Assembly: GCA_040755755.1 (NCBI GenBank)
Contig: JBFLZW010000064.1
Location: forward strand, 1-20,220
DNA length: 20,220 bases
Source: a bacterium
Lineage (GTDB): Bacteria; SZUA-182; DTGQ01
Direction: 5' to 3'
Shown piece after piece: positions 6,241 to 11,625 of this stretch. A program made the translations under genes and the position numbers. Position 1 is the first letter of the stretch, and every line of letters starts with the position of its first letter. The notes under the pieces were generated by a model, which was not told the DNA's origin, did not search any database, and worked only from the letters and a program-made list of their open reading frames with translations.

Positions 6241-6307
6241 CAGGAGTCAGGAGTCAGAATACAGAATCCAGAATGGGTAAAGCATGTATTCTGACTCCTG
6301 ACTCCTG
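6241..6307. repeat. Perfect long palindromic extragenic repeat (23-bp arms)
   Basis: Arms 6241-6263 and 6285-6307 are fully complementary over 23 bases, with a 21-base loop. The left arm begins CAGGAGTCAGGAGTCAGAAT. The right end is eight bases beyond the glycosyltransferase stop codon. No T-run follows, so a factor-independent terminator is not clear, although such a strong hairpin could protect or attenuate the transcript. The same CAGGAGTCAGGAGT theme recurs at 17753-17786 before lpxI. Confidence 0.88.
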
Positions 6308-6315
6308 GCTGCTCT

Positions 6316-7602
6316 TCACTGGCCACTTTCTTTCCCGCCCAGAACAGCCTTTCCAGCCGCCGAAAGGCGGTTGCTCCATATACTCCACTCTTCCTCGATC
6401 CGCCGCAGGATTGCGGCCCAGGCTTTGTGCTGCTCAGGTCCGGCCGTGGTCCGTGCCCTGTCCAGGAGGAGGTGCCGGTAAAGTGCAAGGGCTTTATCAG
6501 CGCTTTTGGCTGTTGAAAATTCCCGTGCAGTGCTTCGCGCCGCCTCGATCAGGGAGCGGCGTTTTTGGGGCTCAAGTGAGGTGATCGAAGAAATGGCCTG
6601 AATGAACAGCTCTATCTTCTCCTCCCCGATCAACCGGCCATTCTCACCATCCCGGACTACCTCATGCACACCCGGAGCATCGAGGGCCACAACCGGAACA
6701 CCGGCAGCCATGGCCTCGAGCAGCACCATGCCCTGGGTTTCGCTCTTTGAGGTAAAAGCGAAAATGTCCATTGCCTGATAAGCATCAGCCAGCCTGCTGC
6801 CTACCAGGGCCCCGGTAACATGGAGGCGCTCGCGAACCTCCGCGTTGATGAATACTTCTTCTATCTTCGTCTGAGCAGGGCCTGAGCCGACAACCAGGGC
6901 ATGACTCGTGGGTGACTGTCTGATGAATCCGGCAACGGCCTCAGCCCAGAATTCGAGATTTTTCTCCGCAGCAAGACGGCCCACATACCCGATGACCAGG
7001 GCGTCAGCCGGAATTCCCATATCAGCCCGGAACAGCGGGCCGTTTCCCTGTCCAAACCGTTCGATATCAACCCCGGTGGGAATGACGCTTATCGGGGTCT
7101 TCACTCCCCGCCCGGTGAGAATCGCAGCCACGCTCTCACTCGGAGCGATCACCTGGTCACAGAGGTTGGCATATCCGGTTGATAGCTCGATGACGAAATG
7201 CCGGAGTCTGGGCGAGTCTCCCGGCACGTAATGCGTGTACTGCTCATACATGGTATGATGGGTGAACACCAGGGGAATATTGAGGCTGGCCGCGGTGCGA
7301 AGGGCTGTATCTCCCAGCAGGTAGGGATGATGCGAATGGATGATATCTGCCTGGAACAGCTCCATTTTCTTCGACAGGACCAGGGGTATGGCCAGGCTGA
7401 CCGAAAAATCGCTTCCATTGAAGTTCTGAATGGCCCGGACCCGGATGACATCTTTTTCGTCCTGGGGCGTATTCTCAAAGACCGGAGCCACAACCAGAAC
7501 CCGATGTCCCAGCCTGCGGTACTCATCCGTAAAAGCCTTGACGGAATTGGCCACCCCGCCCACATGAGGAATAAAGGTATTGGTGAACATGGCAATATTC
7601 AT
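6316..7602 (-). CDS. GT4-family glycosyltransferase
   Basis: A 428-residue retaining GT-B glycosyltransferase. The N-terminal FTNTFIPHVGGVANSV loop and the HSHHP motif (89-93) form the acceptor side. The donor-binding side shows IGYVGRLAAEKN (about 204-215) and the E-x7-E motif (Glu288, Glu296) in SETQGMVLLEAMAAGVPVVA. The N-terminus resembles diacylglycerol glucosyltransferases and related lipid or sugar transferases, so a glycolipid product is possible but not shown. The last 70 residues are a helical, Arg-rich tail. Its start codon overlaps the stop of the glycosidase-like gene in an ATGA (7602-7599), which implies translational coupling and probably a shared pathway. It is the last gene of the operon that begins at 11318. 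Confidence 0.93.
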   Translation of the reverse strand: MNIAMFTNTFIPHVGGVANSVKAFTDEYRRLGHRVLVVAPVFENTPQDEKDVIRVRAIQNFNGSDFSVSLAIPLVLSKKMELFQADIIHSHHPYLLGDTALRTAASLNIPLVFTHHTMYEQYTHYVPGDSPRLRHFVIELSTGYANLCDQVIAPSESVAAILTGRGVKTPISVIPTGVDIERFGQGNGPLFRADMGIPADALVIGYVGRLAAEKNLEFWAEAVAGFIRQSPTSHALVVGSGPAQTKIEEVFINAEVRERLHVTGALVGSRLADAYQAMDIFAFTSKSETQGMVLLEAMAAGVPVVALDAPGVHEVVRDGENGRLIGEEKIELFIQAISSITSLEPQKRRSLIEAARSTAREFSTAKSADKALALYRHLLLDRARTTAGPEQHKAWAAILRRIEEEWSIWSNRLSAAGKAVLGGKESGQ

Positions 7603-9884
7603 GGCCGCAGGATTTCCACCTTTGTCTCTGAGGAAGCATCTGTCTGCCGGGGCTGAAGGCCCGGTATCCTCACTTCCATCATCGGTGCCTGTCCCCGCCA
7701 GGAAGCCTGCCAGGCGACAGTAACCTTGTGGGGCTCTGGCTCAATCTTCAGGCTTATCTCACCGCAGGGGGTAAGCGCAGGACCAAACCCGATCGGTTGT
7801 GGCTGATCGAGCCACTCAGGCAGTATTCCCGAAGCAAGAATCAGACGGTTTCCTTCTTCACGGACGAACATGGCGCGCATCATCATGATCCACTCTGCCG
7901 CAGCCCAGACGTGCTGACCATCTCCCATGCAGCCGCCGCGGGTCTGCGGATGAATGGCCTCTGGCCACTGGCCGGTTGGCGAGGCCAGATCGGCTATGGT
8001 TTTAACCAGATTACCAAAGCGGATGTCCCCGGCCCGCAGAAGAACCTGGGCCAGATGCAGGGTCAGGTAAGCGTTGATGCCGGAATGAATCATTTCCTGA
8101 AAGAAGGCCCCATTAACGAAGCAGTTCTCGATCAGGTAATTCACCGTCTCCAGCACCCGCCGATCATCCGGAGCCCACAGCCGCAGGGGATAGCTGGCTA
8201 CGATGCTGCCGATGGCACCCGCATCCATCCGCCGGTGAGGTGAAGCCGGAATCCCCGGGTGCCTGCGAATGCTGAAAGACCGCTCCAGACTCCGCTCGAT
8301 GGCCTGCATAAGCCCCTCTGCCTCCTGATTAAAATTGCGGGCTGCTTTCGGGTGGCCGAGGGCTTCGATCATGGATGCCGCTGCCCGCAGGCCAGCCACA
8401 CCCCAAAAGTCATCCCAGTAATAATTGTCATTCAGACCAAGATGCTCTGCACTGAAGCCGGCAGGCAGAAGCCCGGCCTGAAGGCTTGTGTTATCATCGG
8501 ATAAACGCTTCTCCTGTATCCACTTCCCACCCTTCATGATGCTCCAGGACCAGTCTGCCTGCGGCAGGGTACCGGTCAGCTCGCAGAGCCTGTGCATGAT
8601 CCAGAGGGCCTCTCCGTTGGAATCCCATTCCCCGGCCTGAGAGCGGAAAAAACCCGCCCCCGTCTGCCGTGCGGGAAAGCGGCTCACAGCCCGCACGACC
8701 CGCTCCTTCATGCCGACACACAGCATGGCCTGCAAAATAAAGGCCGCATCCCTGAACCAGAATCGCTTGTAGGTGTATGGCCCCGGATAAACCTCACCGG
8801 GAGAGTGCAGGATAAGGGTGCGCAGGGCAGCCTCGAAGAGGAATTGAAAACGCTGATCAGGCAGATTCAGACGGCAGAGGCCGTTCAGGGAATCCGACCA
8901 GCCTGTGCGGGGAGCGTCGGATGAAAACAGCGGGCTGCTTTCCTTATCTTCAGACAGCGCAATATCCACACTGACCGTGCGCTGCTGATCAGGCTCGAGC
9001 CGAAAGAGAGCGGCGGCAGTGGCCAGGCCCACCTCGCATTCGATAGACTCCGATTCCTGAGAATCGGGGAGACTCAAAAAAACATCGCCGTCCCGGTACC
9101 GGGAGACAGCATGCCGCTCAACCTGAGTATTGAAGGCAAGACAGCGCTTCTTATTGATGATCCAGCCTTTCCGGTCACTGGTCAGGGCCAGGTGATGAAT
9201 AATGCTGATGCCTTCGGGGTTGTATGGCCGAAGAGCGATCACCAGCCACCCCCCCTGCCCTCCCGACTGGCCAGCCAGGGCCTGAAAACTGATCCTGCAT
9301 ACCGGTGGAAGCCCCTGACGAGCCCCCTCGTCAGTGACCCTGGCCTCGATCTGCAGCAATGCGGCCTCGTGAGTTATCCTGGTCATGATCGAGAGATCAT
9401 CGCGGTTAAGAACCAGTTGCTGAGAAGCGGATGCCGCTTTTGACGGAATCAGCGGATCACTGTTCTCCGTCAATATCCATCCGTCGATCGACCAGCCATT
9501 AAAAAAGGGAGTGACCAGCCCCCTTGGATCGACAATCGGAAGTGCCCGGCAGTCGGGAACGCCAATAGCAGTCCAGTTCCGGTGAGTCAGGTTGACATGG
9601 GTCAAAGAGAATGCACGGGGAATGAAGGACCGATCCAGCGGGTCAAACTGGCGAAGGACCCAGAAAGGCCATACCCAATCGAGATTATGCTGAATAGCCC
9701 TGGTATTCATAAGACCCCGGGCATGGAACACCATCCCCGCCCGCAGCAGCTCGATCGGCTCAGCCACCTCCGATGGCTGGGCGAAACGGCGCAGATGAGA
9801 AAAAAGAGCCACAGGGTCAATAAACCCATGAGAGCGGGCAGCACGGCGAACGATATATTTCCATGGCAGCCAGGAAAGCCGCAA
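7599..9884 (-). CDS. Six-hairpin glycosidase-like protein (glycogen-debranching-like)
   Basis: A 761-residue protein. Residues about 40-310 are beta-rich, like the N-terminal sandwich of amylo-alpha-1,6-glucosidase-like proteins. Residues about 345-660 look like an (alpha/alpha)6 barrel, with KRFWFRDAAFILQA (373-386), GEWDSNGEALW (418-428), NDNYYWDDFWGVAGL (485-499) and a GQWPEAIHPQTRGG segment late in the barrel. The last 90 residues form a small beta domain. Candidate acidic catalytic residues are Asp379, Glu419, Asp421, Glu425 and Asp491/Asp492; I cannot choose among them. No signal peptide is seen, so it is probably cytoplasmic. The start is a TTG at 9884 with a GGGGGG ribosome site eight bases upstream. 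It is coupled to the GT4 gene by a 4-base overlap. Substrate and even activity are unknown; the family includes trehalose, glycogen and cellobiose-type enzymes. Confidence 0.82.
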   Translation of the reverse strand: MRLSWLPWKYIVRRAARSHGFIDPVALFSHLRRFAQPSEVAEPIELLRAGMVFHARGLMNTRAIQHNLDWVWPFWVLRQFDPLDRSFIPRAFSLTHVNLTHRNWTAIGVPDCRALPIVDPRGLVTPFFNGWSIDGWILTENSDPLIPSKAASASQQLVLNRDDLSIMTRITHEAALLQIEARVTDEGARQGLPPVCRISFQALAGQSGGQGGWLVIALRPYNPEGISIIHHLALTSDRKGWIINKKRCLAFNTQVERHAVSRYRDGDVFLSLPDSQESESIECEVGLATAAALFRLEPDQQRTVSVDIALSEDKESSPLFSSDAPRTGWSDSLNGLCRLNLPDQRFQFLFEAALRTLILHSPGEVYPGPYTYKRFWFRDAAFILQAMLCVGMKERVVRAVSRFPARQTGAGFFRSQAGEWDSNGEALWIMHRLCELTGTLPQADWSWSIMKGGKWIQEKRLSDDNTSLQAGLLPAGFSAEHLGLNDNYYWDDFWGVAGLRAAASMIEALGHPKAARNFNQEAEGLMQAIERSLERSFSIRRHPGIPASPHRRMDAGAIGSIVASYPLRLWAPDDRRVLETVNYLIENCFVNGAFFQEMIHSGINAYLTLHLAQVLLRAGDIRFGNLVKTIADLASPTGQWPEAIHPQTRGGCMGDGQHVWAAAEWIMMMRAMFVREEGNRLILASGILPEWLDQPQPIGFGPALTPCGEISLKIEPEPHKVTVAWQASWRGQAPMMEVRIPGLQPRQTDASSETKVEILRP

Positions 9885-9917
9885 TGTTTCTTCCCCCCTT
9901 CTTGATTGATTATAGTT

Positions 9918-10460
9918 TTACTCTTGAGTGGAGGTATTCAGGAATTTATTATCGAAGGTCCAGCCTTTGGGCCGGAGAGGACAGTACAGGTTCTGATGTG
10001 GCTCCCGGAAAAAAGCCGTATCATCAAAACTCTGGCTGGCATAGTACAGGAGACTACCTACCAGGAATGATCCGATACTGAGGAGACACAGCTCACGCCG
10101 TTGGTGAAGATCGGTGTTATCGTGCTCATCCTCCTCATCACCGGTGCGCTCAAGATACCATAGACCGGCTGTACCAGCCACCAGGAACGGTACAGCCAGC
10201 ATACGGCAGGTTGCCGAGGCGGTTTTTCCCAGCCCTGAGCCTGGCTGCTCGCTGCCTTCAGCTTCGATTTCCCGGTGAATCCCATCCTGCTCTGCAACGG
10301 GCAGGGGGGATGAGAGGGAAAATACCTGCCGTCCGGCAGCACAGCCTGACGAGGATATGGCAATCAGACAGGTCAGGAAGACAATCAGGCTTCCCGGAGC
10401 GGAAATCTCGATTTGGCTTTTCTCCTTGGAGATGGTGGTAAAATGATAATACCAGTCCAC
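9918..10460 (-). CDS. Small membrane or lipoprotein-like protein, unknown function
   Basis: A 180-residue protein I do not recognise. A hydrophobic segment at 24-36 (SLIVFLTCLIAIS) ends in SSGC40, which resembles a lipobox but lacks the usual Leu at -3. Two further hydrophobic segments at 87-103 and 124-141 are probable membrane helices, separated by an acidic loop (RTGDEEDEHDNTD). Either a lipoprotein with two helices or a three-helix membrane protein fits. The GTG at 10460 is the only open start before the first hydrophobic segment and overlaps the preceding gene by 76 bases. AAGGAG occurs inside the frame near 10425 but without a nearby ATG, GTG or TTG, so the start is uncertain. It ends 33 bases before the glycosidase-like gene and is probably in the same operon. 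Confidence 0.62.
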   Translation of the reverse strand: MDWYYHFTTISKEKSQIEISAPGSLIVFLTCLIAISSSGCAAGRQVFSLSSPLPVAEQDGIHREIEAEGSEQPGSGLGKTASATCRMLAVPFLVAGTAGLWYLERTGDEEDEHDNTDLHQRRELCLLSIGSFLVGSLLYYASQSFDDTAFFREPHQNLYCPLRPKGWTFDNKFLNTSTQE

Positions 10461-10699
10461 ACCTCTACATCCTGCCTGGTGATCAGTTTCATATCACAGG
10501 CAATGTGCACGGCTGCTTCCAAACCGGCCTCTTCGCCGTAGAGGTCTTCCATGAATTTGGCAATCTTATAATCCCGCCTGCCCTTCTTGGGGCTCCAGCC
10601 CATTCCGTGCGTGTAGCCGTCCATGAACCGATGGAGCTCCGGATGAGGCTTTATGCCCAGGAAAAGCTGGGTAACCCGGCAATGATCACGGTTATTCAT
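10385..10699 (-). CDS. Small hypothetical protein
   Basis: A 104-residue protein of unknown function. The core (about 10-85) is a plausible folded domain with the sequence IKPHPELHRFMDGYTHGMGW followed by charged helices (YKIAKFMEDLYGEEAGLEAAVHIACD). The last 20 residues are basic and overlap the next gene. His, Asp and Glu residues are present, but no metal-binding motif can be assigned. There is no signal peptide. The ATG at 10699 has only a weak AGTGG ribosome site and follows the previous stop by 21 bases. Tight packing supports a real gene; I have no family match from memory. Confidence 0.62.
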   Translation of the reverse strand: MNNRDHCRVTQLFLGIKPHPELHRFMDGYTHGMGWSPKKGRRDYKIAKFMEDLYGEEAGLEAAVHIACDMKLITRQDVEVWTGIIILPPSPRRKAKSRFPLREA

Positions 10700-10720
10700 C
10701 CACTACTCTTTTACTGCTTC

Positions 10721-11038
10721 CTACCCGATCTTCTTTTCCGGAAGCGGAGCGTTGAGGCCGTATATTTCACCCAGCAGGTCCTTGGCATGATCATCCAGGT
10801 CCGAATCATAGAGTTTCAGGACCTTCATATAAGCCTCACCCCAGGTTTTCCACATCTGCTGAGCATCCGGGGCAGCGATCCCGACACTCTGGCCTCGGGC
10901 GCTACTTAACTCCTGCAGCGCGACCACGTCCTTTTCGTCCAGAAGTGTCGTCGGTTTTAACTTGATCACCCTCTCCAGTTGCAGATCCCAGAATATCCTC
11001 AGTGCCTGCACCTTTTCCAGCAGGTTCCTGATCTCCAT
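10721..11038 (-). CDS. Small helical protein, unknown function
   Basis: A 105-residue, mostly alpha-helical protein that starts MEIRNLLEKVQALRIFWDLQ. The C-terminal half holds an aromatic-rich helix (QQMWKTWGEAYMKVLKLYD). The ATG at 11038 has GGGAGG seven bases upstream, a good ribosome site; a TTG at 11044 is also open but less likely. It overlaps the 3' part of the upstream coiled-coil reading frame by 137 bases. The strong ribosome site and protein-like composition make this frame the better candidate in the overlap. It may be a partner of the coiled-coil protein; this is inferred only from adjacency. Confidence 0.65.
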   Translation of the reverse strand: MEIRNLLEKVQALRIFWDLQLERVIKLKPTTLLDEKDVVALQELSSARGQSVGIAAPDAQQMWKTWGEAYMKVLKLYDSDLDDHAKDLLGEIYGLNAPLPEKKIG

Positions 11039-11318
11039 GAACAATCCCTCCCTTAATTAGGTGTACTTCCTCAGTAACCACTTGTTTCCATTCTCTGGCG
11101 CTTTCAGCCAGATCCTGCCGCCAGAGTCTGACTTCCTCTTTAATCAGGCGGTCATACTCCCTGAGCGTTTCCGATTTCCAGGTATTTTTTTCCCGAAGCA
11201 TCTCATTCCGCCAGGAAAGCGTTTCTCTCCGTAATTCGCCTTGCCATTTTCGGACTTCAGAACTCAAGGTTTCAATTTCACCTGAAGCCTGTCTGCGCCA
11301 CTCTCCTGCTTCAGCCAT
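10902..11318 (-). CDS. Coiled-coil protein with 11-residue Trp-spaced repeat
   Basis: A 138-residue frame. The first 88 residues are highly charged and predicted to be a long helix, with Trp at 7, 25, 36, 47, 66 and 77; Trp25, 36 and 47 are exactly 11 apart, as are 66 and 77. The segments WQGELRRETLS, WRNEMLREKNT and WKSETLREYDR are clear repeats. An 11-residue period suggests a hendecad coiled coil rather than a classical heptad one. From residue about 90 the composition turns Gly/Lys/Asp-rich and overlaps the next gene, so this tail may be out-of-frame sequence or follow a frameshift. The ATG at 11318 lies 11 bases after AAAAGGAG. It is first in the operon, behind a strong promoter at 11382-11410. 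Confidence 0.65.
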   Translation of the reverse strand: MAEAGEWRRQASGEIETLSSEVRKWQGELRRETLSWRNEMLREKNTWKSETLREYDRLIKEEVRLWRQDLAESAREWKQVVTEEVHLIKGGIVHGDQEPAGKGAGTEDILGSATGEGDQVKTDDTSGRKGRGRAAGVK

Positions 11319-11381: not shown

Positions 11382-11410
11382 ATAATATGACATACCGACC
11401 GTCAAGTCAA
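11382..11410 (-). promoter_or_regulatory. Strong sigma-70-type promoter of the six-gene operon
   Basis: On the minus strand, TTGACT (11410-11405) and TATTAT (11387-11382) are separated by exactly 17 bases. Each box differs from consensus at one position. The predicted start of transcription near 11375 leaves a leader of about 57 bases before the ATG at 11318. A four-codon frame, ATG AAT TAT GGC TGA (11325-11311), sits between the ribosome site and the gene start and overlaps the start region. Confidence 0.75.
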
Positions 11411-11553
11411 GATAAACTGCGCGAATTTCTTAACCAATTTTTCAGCACAAGAGTATGATTATAGCGGTTTTCATGTGGCTAAACTACAAAACCGACATCA
11501 GAGGATTTTACTCCCTCCTTTTCTCCGGGCTTACTTTTGGATTTGCCTGGGTC

Positions 11554-11579
11554 CCTCTGTGCCTCTGTGTCTCTGTGGT
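11554..11579. repeat. Dispersed CTCTGTG extragenic repeat
   Basis: The segment reads CCTCTGTGCCTCTGTGTCTC and ends TGTGGT, an iterated CTCTGTG theme. It resembles the copy at 71-94. It lies downstream of tupA, outside any gene. Confidence 0.55.
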
Positions 11580-11625
11580 GTCCTTTGCCTTTGCCTTTTT
11601 GTAGGAGATGCAATCGAGAACCGCT

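Follow-up and report, generated by a model that had tools for sequence, protein, structure and literature searches.

A conserved gene pair for a predicted GH15-like protein and a GT4 glycosyltransferase as candidate core of a bacterial envelope-lipid module

PlcP-Agt lipid remodelling pairs a phospholipase C with a promiscuous glycosyltransferase of family GT4 (PMC4796936). COG0398-type proteins with a VTT domain have been proposed to be phospholipid scramblases and certain DedA proteins are flippases of undecaprenyl phosphate (UndP) (PMC10127716); EEP proteins of the PGAP2IP/CWH43 group have been linked to remodelling of glycosylphosphatidylinositol (GPI) lipids, and relatives of theirs strip phosphocholine or phosphoethanolamine from N-acetylglucosamine (GlcNAc) (PMC10704324). 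Here we analyse a stretch of 20,220 nucleotides (the window) from a bacterium of GTDB lineage SZUA-182; DTGQ01 (assembly GCA_040755755.1, contig JBFLZW010000064.1), in which a run of six minus-strand genes ends with one for a glycosidase-like protein (GH; 7599..9884, 761 amino acids, TTG start) and one for a GT-B glycosyltransferase (GT4; 6316..7602, 428 amino acids). These two core genes are a deeply conserved pair, and to our minds they may well be the core, on the cytosolic side, of an envelope-lipid module that is widespread and apparently undescribed and whose substrate would be an alpha-glycosyl membrane lipid, a reading we hold with middling confidence.

Conservation of the pair emerged from a scan of 84,980 species genomes (one genome per species), which yielded 305 relatives of GH; the neighbourhood counts given below refer to the best 80 of these 305 loci, with loci that have enough flank as denominators. 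The best 80 relatives are 53-78% identical to GH over nearly the full length. Hosts - labelled as in the sequence records, and many of them metagenome-assembled genomes (MAGs) - comprise Gammaproteobacteria (Microbulbifer, Rheinheimera, Marinobacter, Methylobacter, Hahella), Desulfobacterota-type MAGs, Nitrospirota and Nitrospinota as well as Omnitrophota, Sumerlaeota, Fibrobacteres and others. GT4 adjoins GH in 63 of 74 loci, the two share a strand in 67/67 and the median gap between them is 23 nt, and even in a distant, unrelated genome a GH of 38% identity sits next to a GT4, there in divergent orientation. Within the window the two genes overlap by 4 nt, which is the ATGA coupling that an earlier, sequence-only reading of this DNA had described. 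When the source genome and 59 relatives were compared, full-length GH turned up in four of the 60, and these were also the only ones with GT4 at E<=1e-90. Ratios of dN/dS against the congener (~0.14 for GH, ~0.09 for GT4 and ~0.14 for ORF4, the gene ahead of GH) indicate purifying selection, with dS near saturation. The proposal of the sequence-only reading that a GT4 and an (alpha/alpha)6 glycosidase work on one glycan or glycolipid is thus supported by an adjacency that is conserved across phyla.

Neighbour clustering and family searches further reveal a canonical gene order in which a VTT-domain membrane protein (TVP38/TMEM64) is followed by GH, GT4 and a fusion of a phosphodiesterase (PDE) with an EEP domain. 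A VTT gene lies near GH in 48/76 loci, PDE and EEP occur in 47 and 46, respectively, of 66 testable GH loci, and 33 loci contain the complete four-part module in contiguous form. Hence the real conserved partners of the pair are VTT and PDE-EEP, which lie outside the window, and not the small genes that had been nominated from the window itself. The components are correlated in their pairwise identities (r 0.77-0.89), a pattern that co-inheritance predicts but that any genes shared by these genomes would show as well. Two Fibrobacteres genomes encode GT4 beside PDE/EEP and both away from GH, which suggests that the parts associate by gene content, too. The association is imperfect, since several GH genomes are without any PDE/EEP, and no EEP was found in a relative with GH and GT4 (G003, 91% complete) nor in the more distant G020. 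Marinobacter has VTT-GH alone, and its nearest GT4 is encoded elsewhere, fused behind a membrane-anchored metallophosphoesterase. This fusion (L109:1450-3693), in which a hydrophobic segment connects the metallophosphoesterase to a GT4 part with an MGlcDAG-synthase-like score of 209 bits (MGlcDAG, alpha-monoglucosyldiacylglycerol), is possibly a further phosphoesterase-GT4 lipid system.

What is conserved in the partners points towards lipids. The VTT protein matches PF09335 (E 4e-27). The PDE half is NPP-like (PF01663), matches the fold of a bacterial NPP (7n1s, Z 21.7), has a hydrophobic hairpin and conserves the residues of the AP superfamily (D46, T87, D260, H264, D306, H307 and H494 in L010 numbering). 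As for the EEP half, it conserves the usual EEP active-site set, matches PF23226 (PGAP2IP/CWH43) above cut-off and resembles mannosyl-6-phosphatase 4c1r and sphingomyelinases in fold. Since a glycosyltransferase, a glycosidase-fold enzyme, a double phosphodiesterase and a lipid-moving protein all fit the metabolism of a membrane (phospho)glycolipid, it is this combination that leads us to the lipid reading.

The window itself carries GH and GT4 only, so the four parts do not stand together here. In the 97.6%-complete draft of its genome we found neither the PDE half nor any VTT/DedA-domain match; the latter is unusual because DedA functions can be essential, and 13 of 14 control genomes have such a match. 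An EEP protein is encoded on another contig (G000:C7:859-1611) as a stand-alone form of 250 amino acids; its identity to the EEP half is 55% (54-55% when its counterpart in the congener is included), and no homologue of it at E<=1e-40 turned up in the remaining 58 genomes. Judged from gene content, the window lineage appears to hold a reduced form of the module.

GH had been called an (alpha/alpha)6 glycosidase-like protein from its sequence, and rightly so: the fold is visible in the predicted structure yet invisible to Pfam. GH has no Pfam match at E<=1 and no NCBIfam assignment, none of 61 homologues matches the GH15 profile at E<=0.01, and sequence searches of PDB, Pfam and NCBIfam fail or remain weak, so that fold comparison alone succeeded. 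Our model was built on an alignment of 61 sequences, from which distant homologues at 25-27% identity (L005-L008, some with discoidin domains) were excluded, and reached a pLDDT of 85 and a pTM of 0.87, with residues 24-75 poorly modelled. It consists of a beta domain (~100-310), an (alpha/alpha)6 barrel (~323-680) and a C-terminal beta segment, and aligns with bacterial glucoamylase 1lf6 (Z 28.7, 3.0 A, 529 residues), glucodextranase 1ug9 (Z 28.3, 3.0 A, 527 residues) and dextran dextrinase 9ju0 (Z 29.4, 4.2 A, 533 residues); other fold matches are amylo-alpha-1,6-glucosidase 7vma and GH65-type phosphorylases. GH is therefore predicted to have a GH15-glucoamylase-like fold. Foldseek alone ranked GH94-type phosphorylases above the GH15 enzymes, so GH may be either a hydrolase or a phosphorylase.

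In GH15 enzymes the general acid directly follows the motif Trp, and the base is the Glu of a late motif. Two carboxylates of GH, both invariant in the 61 homologues, are candidates for these roles: Asp491 in W-D-D-F-W (codon 8412..8414, minus strand) as putative general acid and Glu642 in W-P-E-A-I-H-P (codon 7959..7961, minus strand) as putative catalytic base. A weak profile alignment pairs W-E-D-M of dextran dextrinase with W490-D491-D492-F of GH; the assignment of both residues is one that we infer by analogy. A plasmid or phage origin of GH was considered and rejected, the two plasmid matches being 25%-identical and half-length and PHROG matches being absent.

GT4 is as clear a member of its family as the sequence-only reading had it, with PF13439 (E 2e-36) and PF00534 (E 3e-33) both above cut-offs and an EX7E motif (E288-E296, SETQGMVLLE) that is kept in homologues. 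Its top NCBIfam model is MGlcDAG synthase NF049988 (E 1e-42; 3e-48 and 6e-54 for two homologues), followed by MshA and glucosamine (GlcN)-phosphatidylglycerol synthase; further likenesses are to glycogen-type synthases, TuaC and glycosyltransferases for exopolysaccharides (EPS). GT4 has no transmembrane (TM) segment, its only hydrophobic stretch being a buried part of its fold, and GH has a basic N-terminus without any hydrophobic N-terminal or TM segment. This would place making and trimming at the cytosolic face.

In the pathway we propose, GT4 would take a sugar from an activated donor and attach it in alpha-linkage to a membrane lipid of diacylglycerol, phosphatidyl or polyprenyl type, and GH would trim or reset the resulting alpha-glycoside from the cytosolic side. 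A phospho-head-group or phospho-substituent would be taken off by the phosphodiesterase and the EEP enzyme, and the VTT protein would carry the lipid from one leaflet to the other. The window lineage would draw its EEP enzyme from elsewhere in the genome, and ORF4 might serve as a lineage-specific accessory. A more far-reaching version, which we offer tentatively and think rather less than probable, sees a pathway that crosses phyla, with a new GH15-like family acting inside the cell, together with a VTT scramblase and an NPP-type PDE/EEP, to edit an alpha-glycosyl membrane lipid, as a bacterial counterpart of GPI-type lipid remodelling.

Several points weigh against the lipid reading. GT4 scores 147 bits on NF049988 where the cut-off is 400, and acceptor specificity of GT4 enzymes is hard to predict. 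The putative general acid of GH is Asp where GH15 enzymes usually have Glu, and the substrates of characterised GH15 enzymes are glucans, soluble or polymeric. Nucleases and nucleotide pyrophosphatases, too, have EEP and PDE folds. The source genome is without two of the four partners, so the role of the pair may differ here. Finally, a search for Pho boxes upstream of 81 loci, confined to the consensus CTGTCAT-N4-CTGTCAT, gave a mean best score of 8.6 vs 8.4 in shuffles, and a link to phosphate-starvation lipid remodelling is hence not supported.

Given the company that GH keeps in fold space, the pair might instead make and degrade a soluble glucoside or a storage or compatible-solute glycan (glucosylglycerol-, trehalose- or glycogen-like), with GH as the recycling enzyme. 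The soluble alpha-glucan enzymes that share its fold (1lf6, 1ug9, 7vma and GH65-type phosphorylases), the likeness of GT4 to MshA and glycogen-type synthases and the missing TM segment in GH would all agree with this. We nevertheless consider it unlikely, as the usual neighbours are of membrane or lipid type (VTT, the PDE with its hydrophobic hairpin, the PGAP2IP-like EEP) and the top match of GT4 is a lipid glycosyltransferase. Another option would keep the pair at the membrane and assign it to a UndP-linked envelope glycan, with GT4 extending a lipid-linked oligosaccharide, VTT recycling the carrier, PDE/EEP cleaving a phosphate linkage and GH trimming. Here one could invoke a weak match of the VTT partner to the model of the UndP transporter UptA (26 bits, cut-off 250), the UndP flippases among DedA proteins (PMC10127716) and the resemblance of GT4 to TuaC and EPS glycosyltransferases. 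However, no families beyond the four of the module recur across phyla, and the neighbourhoods contain no recurrent initiating transferase, Wzx-type flippase or polymerase, which makes this option doubtful, too. An alpha-glycosyl membrane lipid hence remains the substrate we favour.

What, then, of the four small genes that precede the pair? All six minus-strand genes that the sequence-only reading had listed are present where it put them: ahead of GH lie ORF1 (10902..11318, 138 amino acids), ORF2 (10721..11038, 105 amino acids, its ATG at 11038 preceded by AAGGGAGG), ORF3 (10385..10699, 104 amino acids) and the lipoprotein-like ORF4 (9918..10460, 180 amino acids). From ORF1 to GT4 the junctions are a 137-nt overlap, a 21-nt gap, a 76-nt overlap, a 33-nt gap and the 4-nt overlap mentioned above. 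Codon preference supports the annotated frame in the second to sixth genes and in ORF1 weakly. Membership of the small genes in a GH-GT4 system was not borne out, with ORFs 1-3 lacking any detectable relative and ORF4 being confined to the congener. Tblastn over 88 loci with GH homologues found ORF4 beside GH in the congener only (L002/L009; 54% identity over the core), so that co-occurrence, for which at least three of the four had been suggested as a test, came to one of four in the congener and none of four in every non-congeneric locus. ORF2 and ORF3 belong to no known family and have no relatives in these 88 loci, in the source genome and its relatives or in IMG/VR, nor does ORF3, the only one searched there, in phage records.

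ORF1, likewise without a tblastn relative in the 88 loci and without a known family in Pfam or NCBIfam (its searches being limited to these and PHROGs), had been labelled a coiled-coil protein. Its residues 1-88 do form a helical repeat, but with a periodicity of 11 rather than 7 (a hendecad with 19 identities at offset 11, period 3.67), and its C-terminal third runs out of frame over ORF2. Such a repeat suits a right-handed coiled coil, or an amphipathic helix that binds a surface, better than a plain heptad coiled coil. Weak PHROG matches of ORF1 (E 0.008-0.04) were discarded as helical bias, not relatives. ORF4 has two hydrophobic segments, the first of them N-terminal and with a Cys after it, features shared by its congener homologue, and may be a lineage-specific lipoprotein-like accessory. 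Where the window has ORFs 1-3, the congener has, ahead of ORF4, an unrelated gene (L009:6152-7285) for 377 amino acids with a GIQQ tandem repeat near the C-terminus and no Pfam match, perhaps similar to Rpn/PD-(D/E)XK transposase-type proteins. Altogether, we regard ORFs 1-3 as orphans, possibly co-transcribed with GH-GT4, and the four small genes look like local additions outside the conserved unit. That the six window genes nonetheless form one lineage-specific system, with small proteins regulating or scaffolding the pair, is very improbable, for although tight spacing, a single promoter candidate and an ORF4 kept beside GH in the congener under purifying selection speak for it, the congener locus has the gene for the 377-residue protein in place of ORFs 1-3, and no other genome searched contains ORFs 2-3. 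The operon reading is thereby corrected in that its most striking genes are the least informative part.

A sigma-70-like promoter candidate (TTGACT-N17-TATTAT, 11382..11410, minus strand) does lie upstream of ORF1, as had been claimed, and is the top score of the region in a consensus scan (10/12 matches); such matches are only moderately enriched (14 observed vs 4.7, sd 2.5, in shuffles), and the motif is not functional evidence. Further upstream, at ~11545-11600, CACAGAGACACAGAGGCACAGAG-type repetitive sequence may be another dispersed repeat. Directly downstream of GT4 and outside the system is an inverted repeat with CAGGAGTCAGGAGTCAGAAT arms (6241..6307, no strand assigned), whose arm has 96 copies genome-wide at <=1 mismatch and none in a reversed control, as befits a dispersed palindromic element. 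After GT4, a minus-strand gene from 5286 to ~6200 encodes ~320 amino acids with a Cys-rich N-terminus and no Pfam match; it is 74% identical to its congener counterpart (L009:11764-12741), and in both an FmdB-type zinc-ribbon gene is next. RNA elements and tRNAs were not detected in the window.

The components of the module are of known kinds, and what is apparently undescribed is the GH family without Pfam/NCBIfam assignment and the four-gene cluster; of the latter we found no description in the open-licence papers searched, a scope in which absence is not proven. A family encoded in at least 305 loci has thus gone without a Pfam/NCBIfam name while travelling with a glycosyltransferase, a membrane protein of lipid-transport type and a double phosphodiesterase. 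If our reading is true, this would amount to a common, unrecognised step of bacterial membrane glycolipid metabolism, and the module occurs in marine and methane-oxidising bacteria that are in culture (Microbulbifer, Rheinheimera, Methylobacter).

Set beside known systems, the module resembles PlcP-Agt in that a GT4 possibly glycosylating diacylglycerol-type lipids is encoded with a phosphodiesterase; yet PlcP is not recurrent near GH-GT4, the module having instead an AP-superfamily PDE with EEP, a GH15-like protein and VTT, and no Pho box was found upstream of its clusters with the consensus tried. With the GH15 enzymes (1lf6, 1ug9, 9ju0) GH shares a predicted fold of an N-terminal beta domain and an (alpha/alpha)6 barrel, and it has conserved carboxylates in both putative catalytic motifs, whereas it is only ~13-15% identical to them, lacks a GH15 profile match, has Asp for Glu as putative acid, comes without a hydrophobic leader and carries an extra C-terminal beta segment. 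Among families, MGlcDAG synthase (NF049988) scores highest against GT4, along almost its entire length, and shares its EX7E motif, but the score falls short (147 vs 400 bits). The canonical neighbour has the VTT domain of COG0398/TVP38-TMEM64 proteins of the DedA type, although it lies outside the window and was not found in the source genome. The EEP partner, finally, matches PF23226 like the CWH43/PGAP2IP-type proteins related to GlcNAc-phosphodiesterases (PMC10704324), but differs from them in being mostly fused to an NPP-like PDE.

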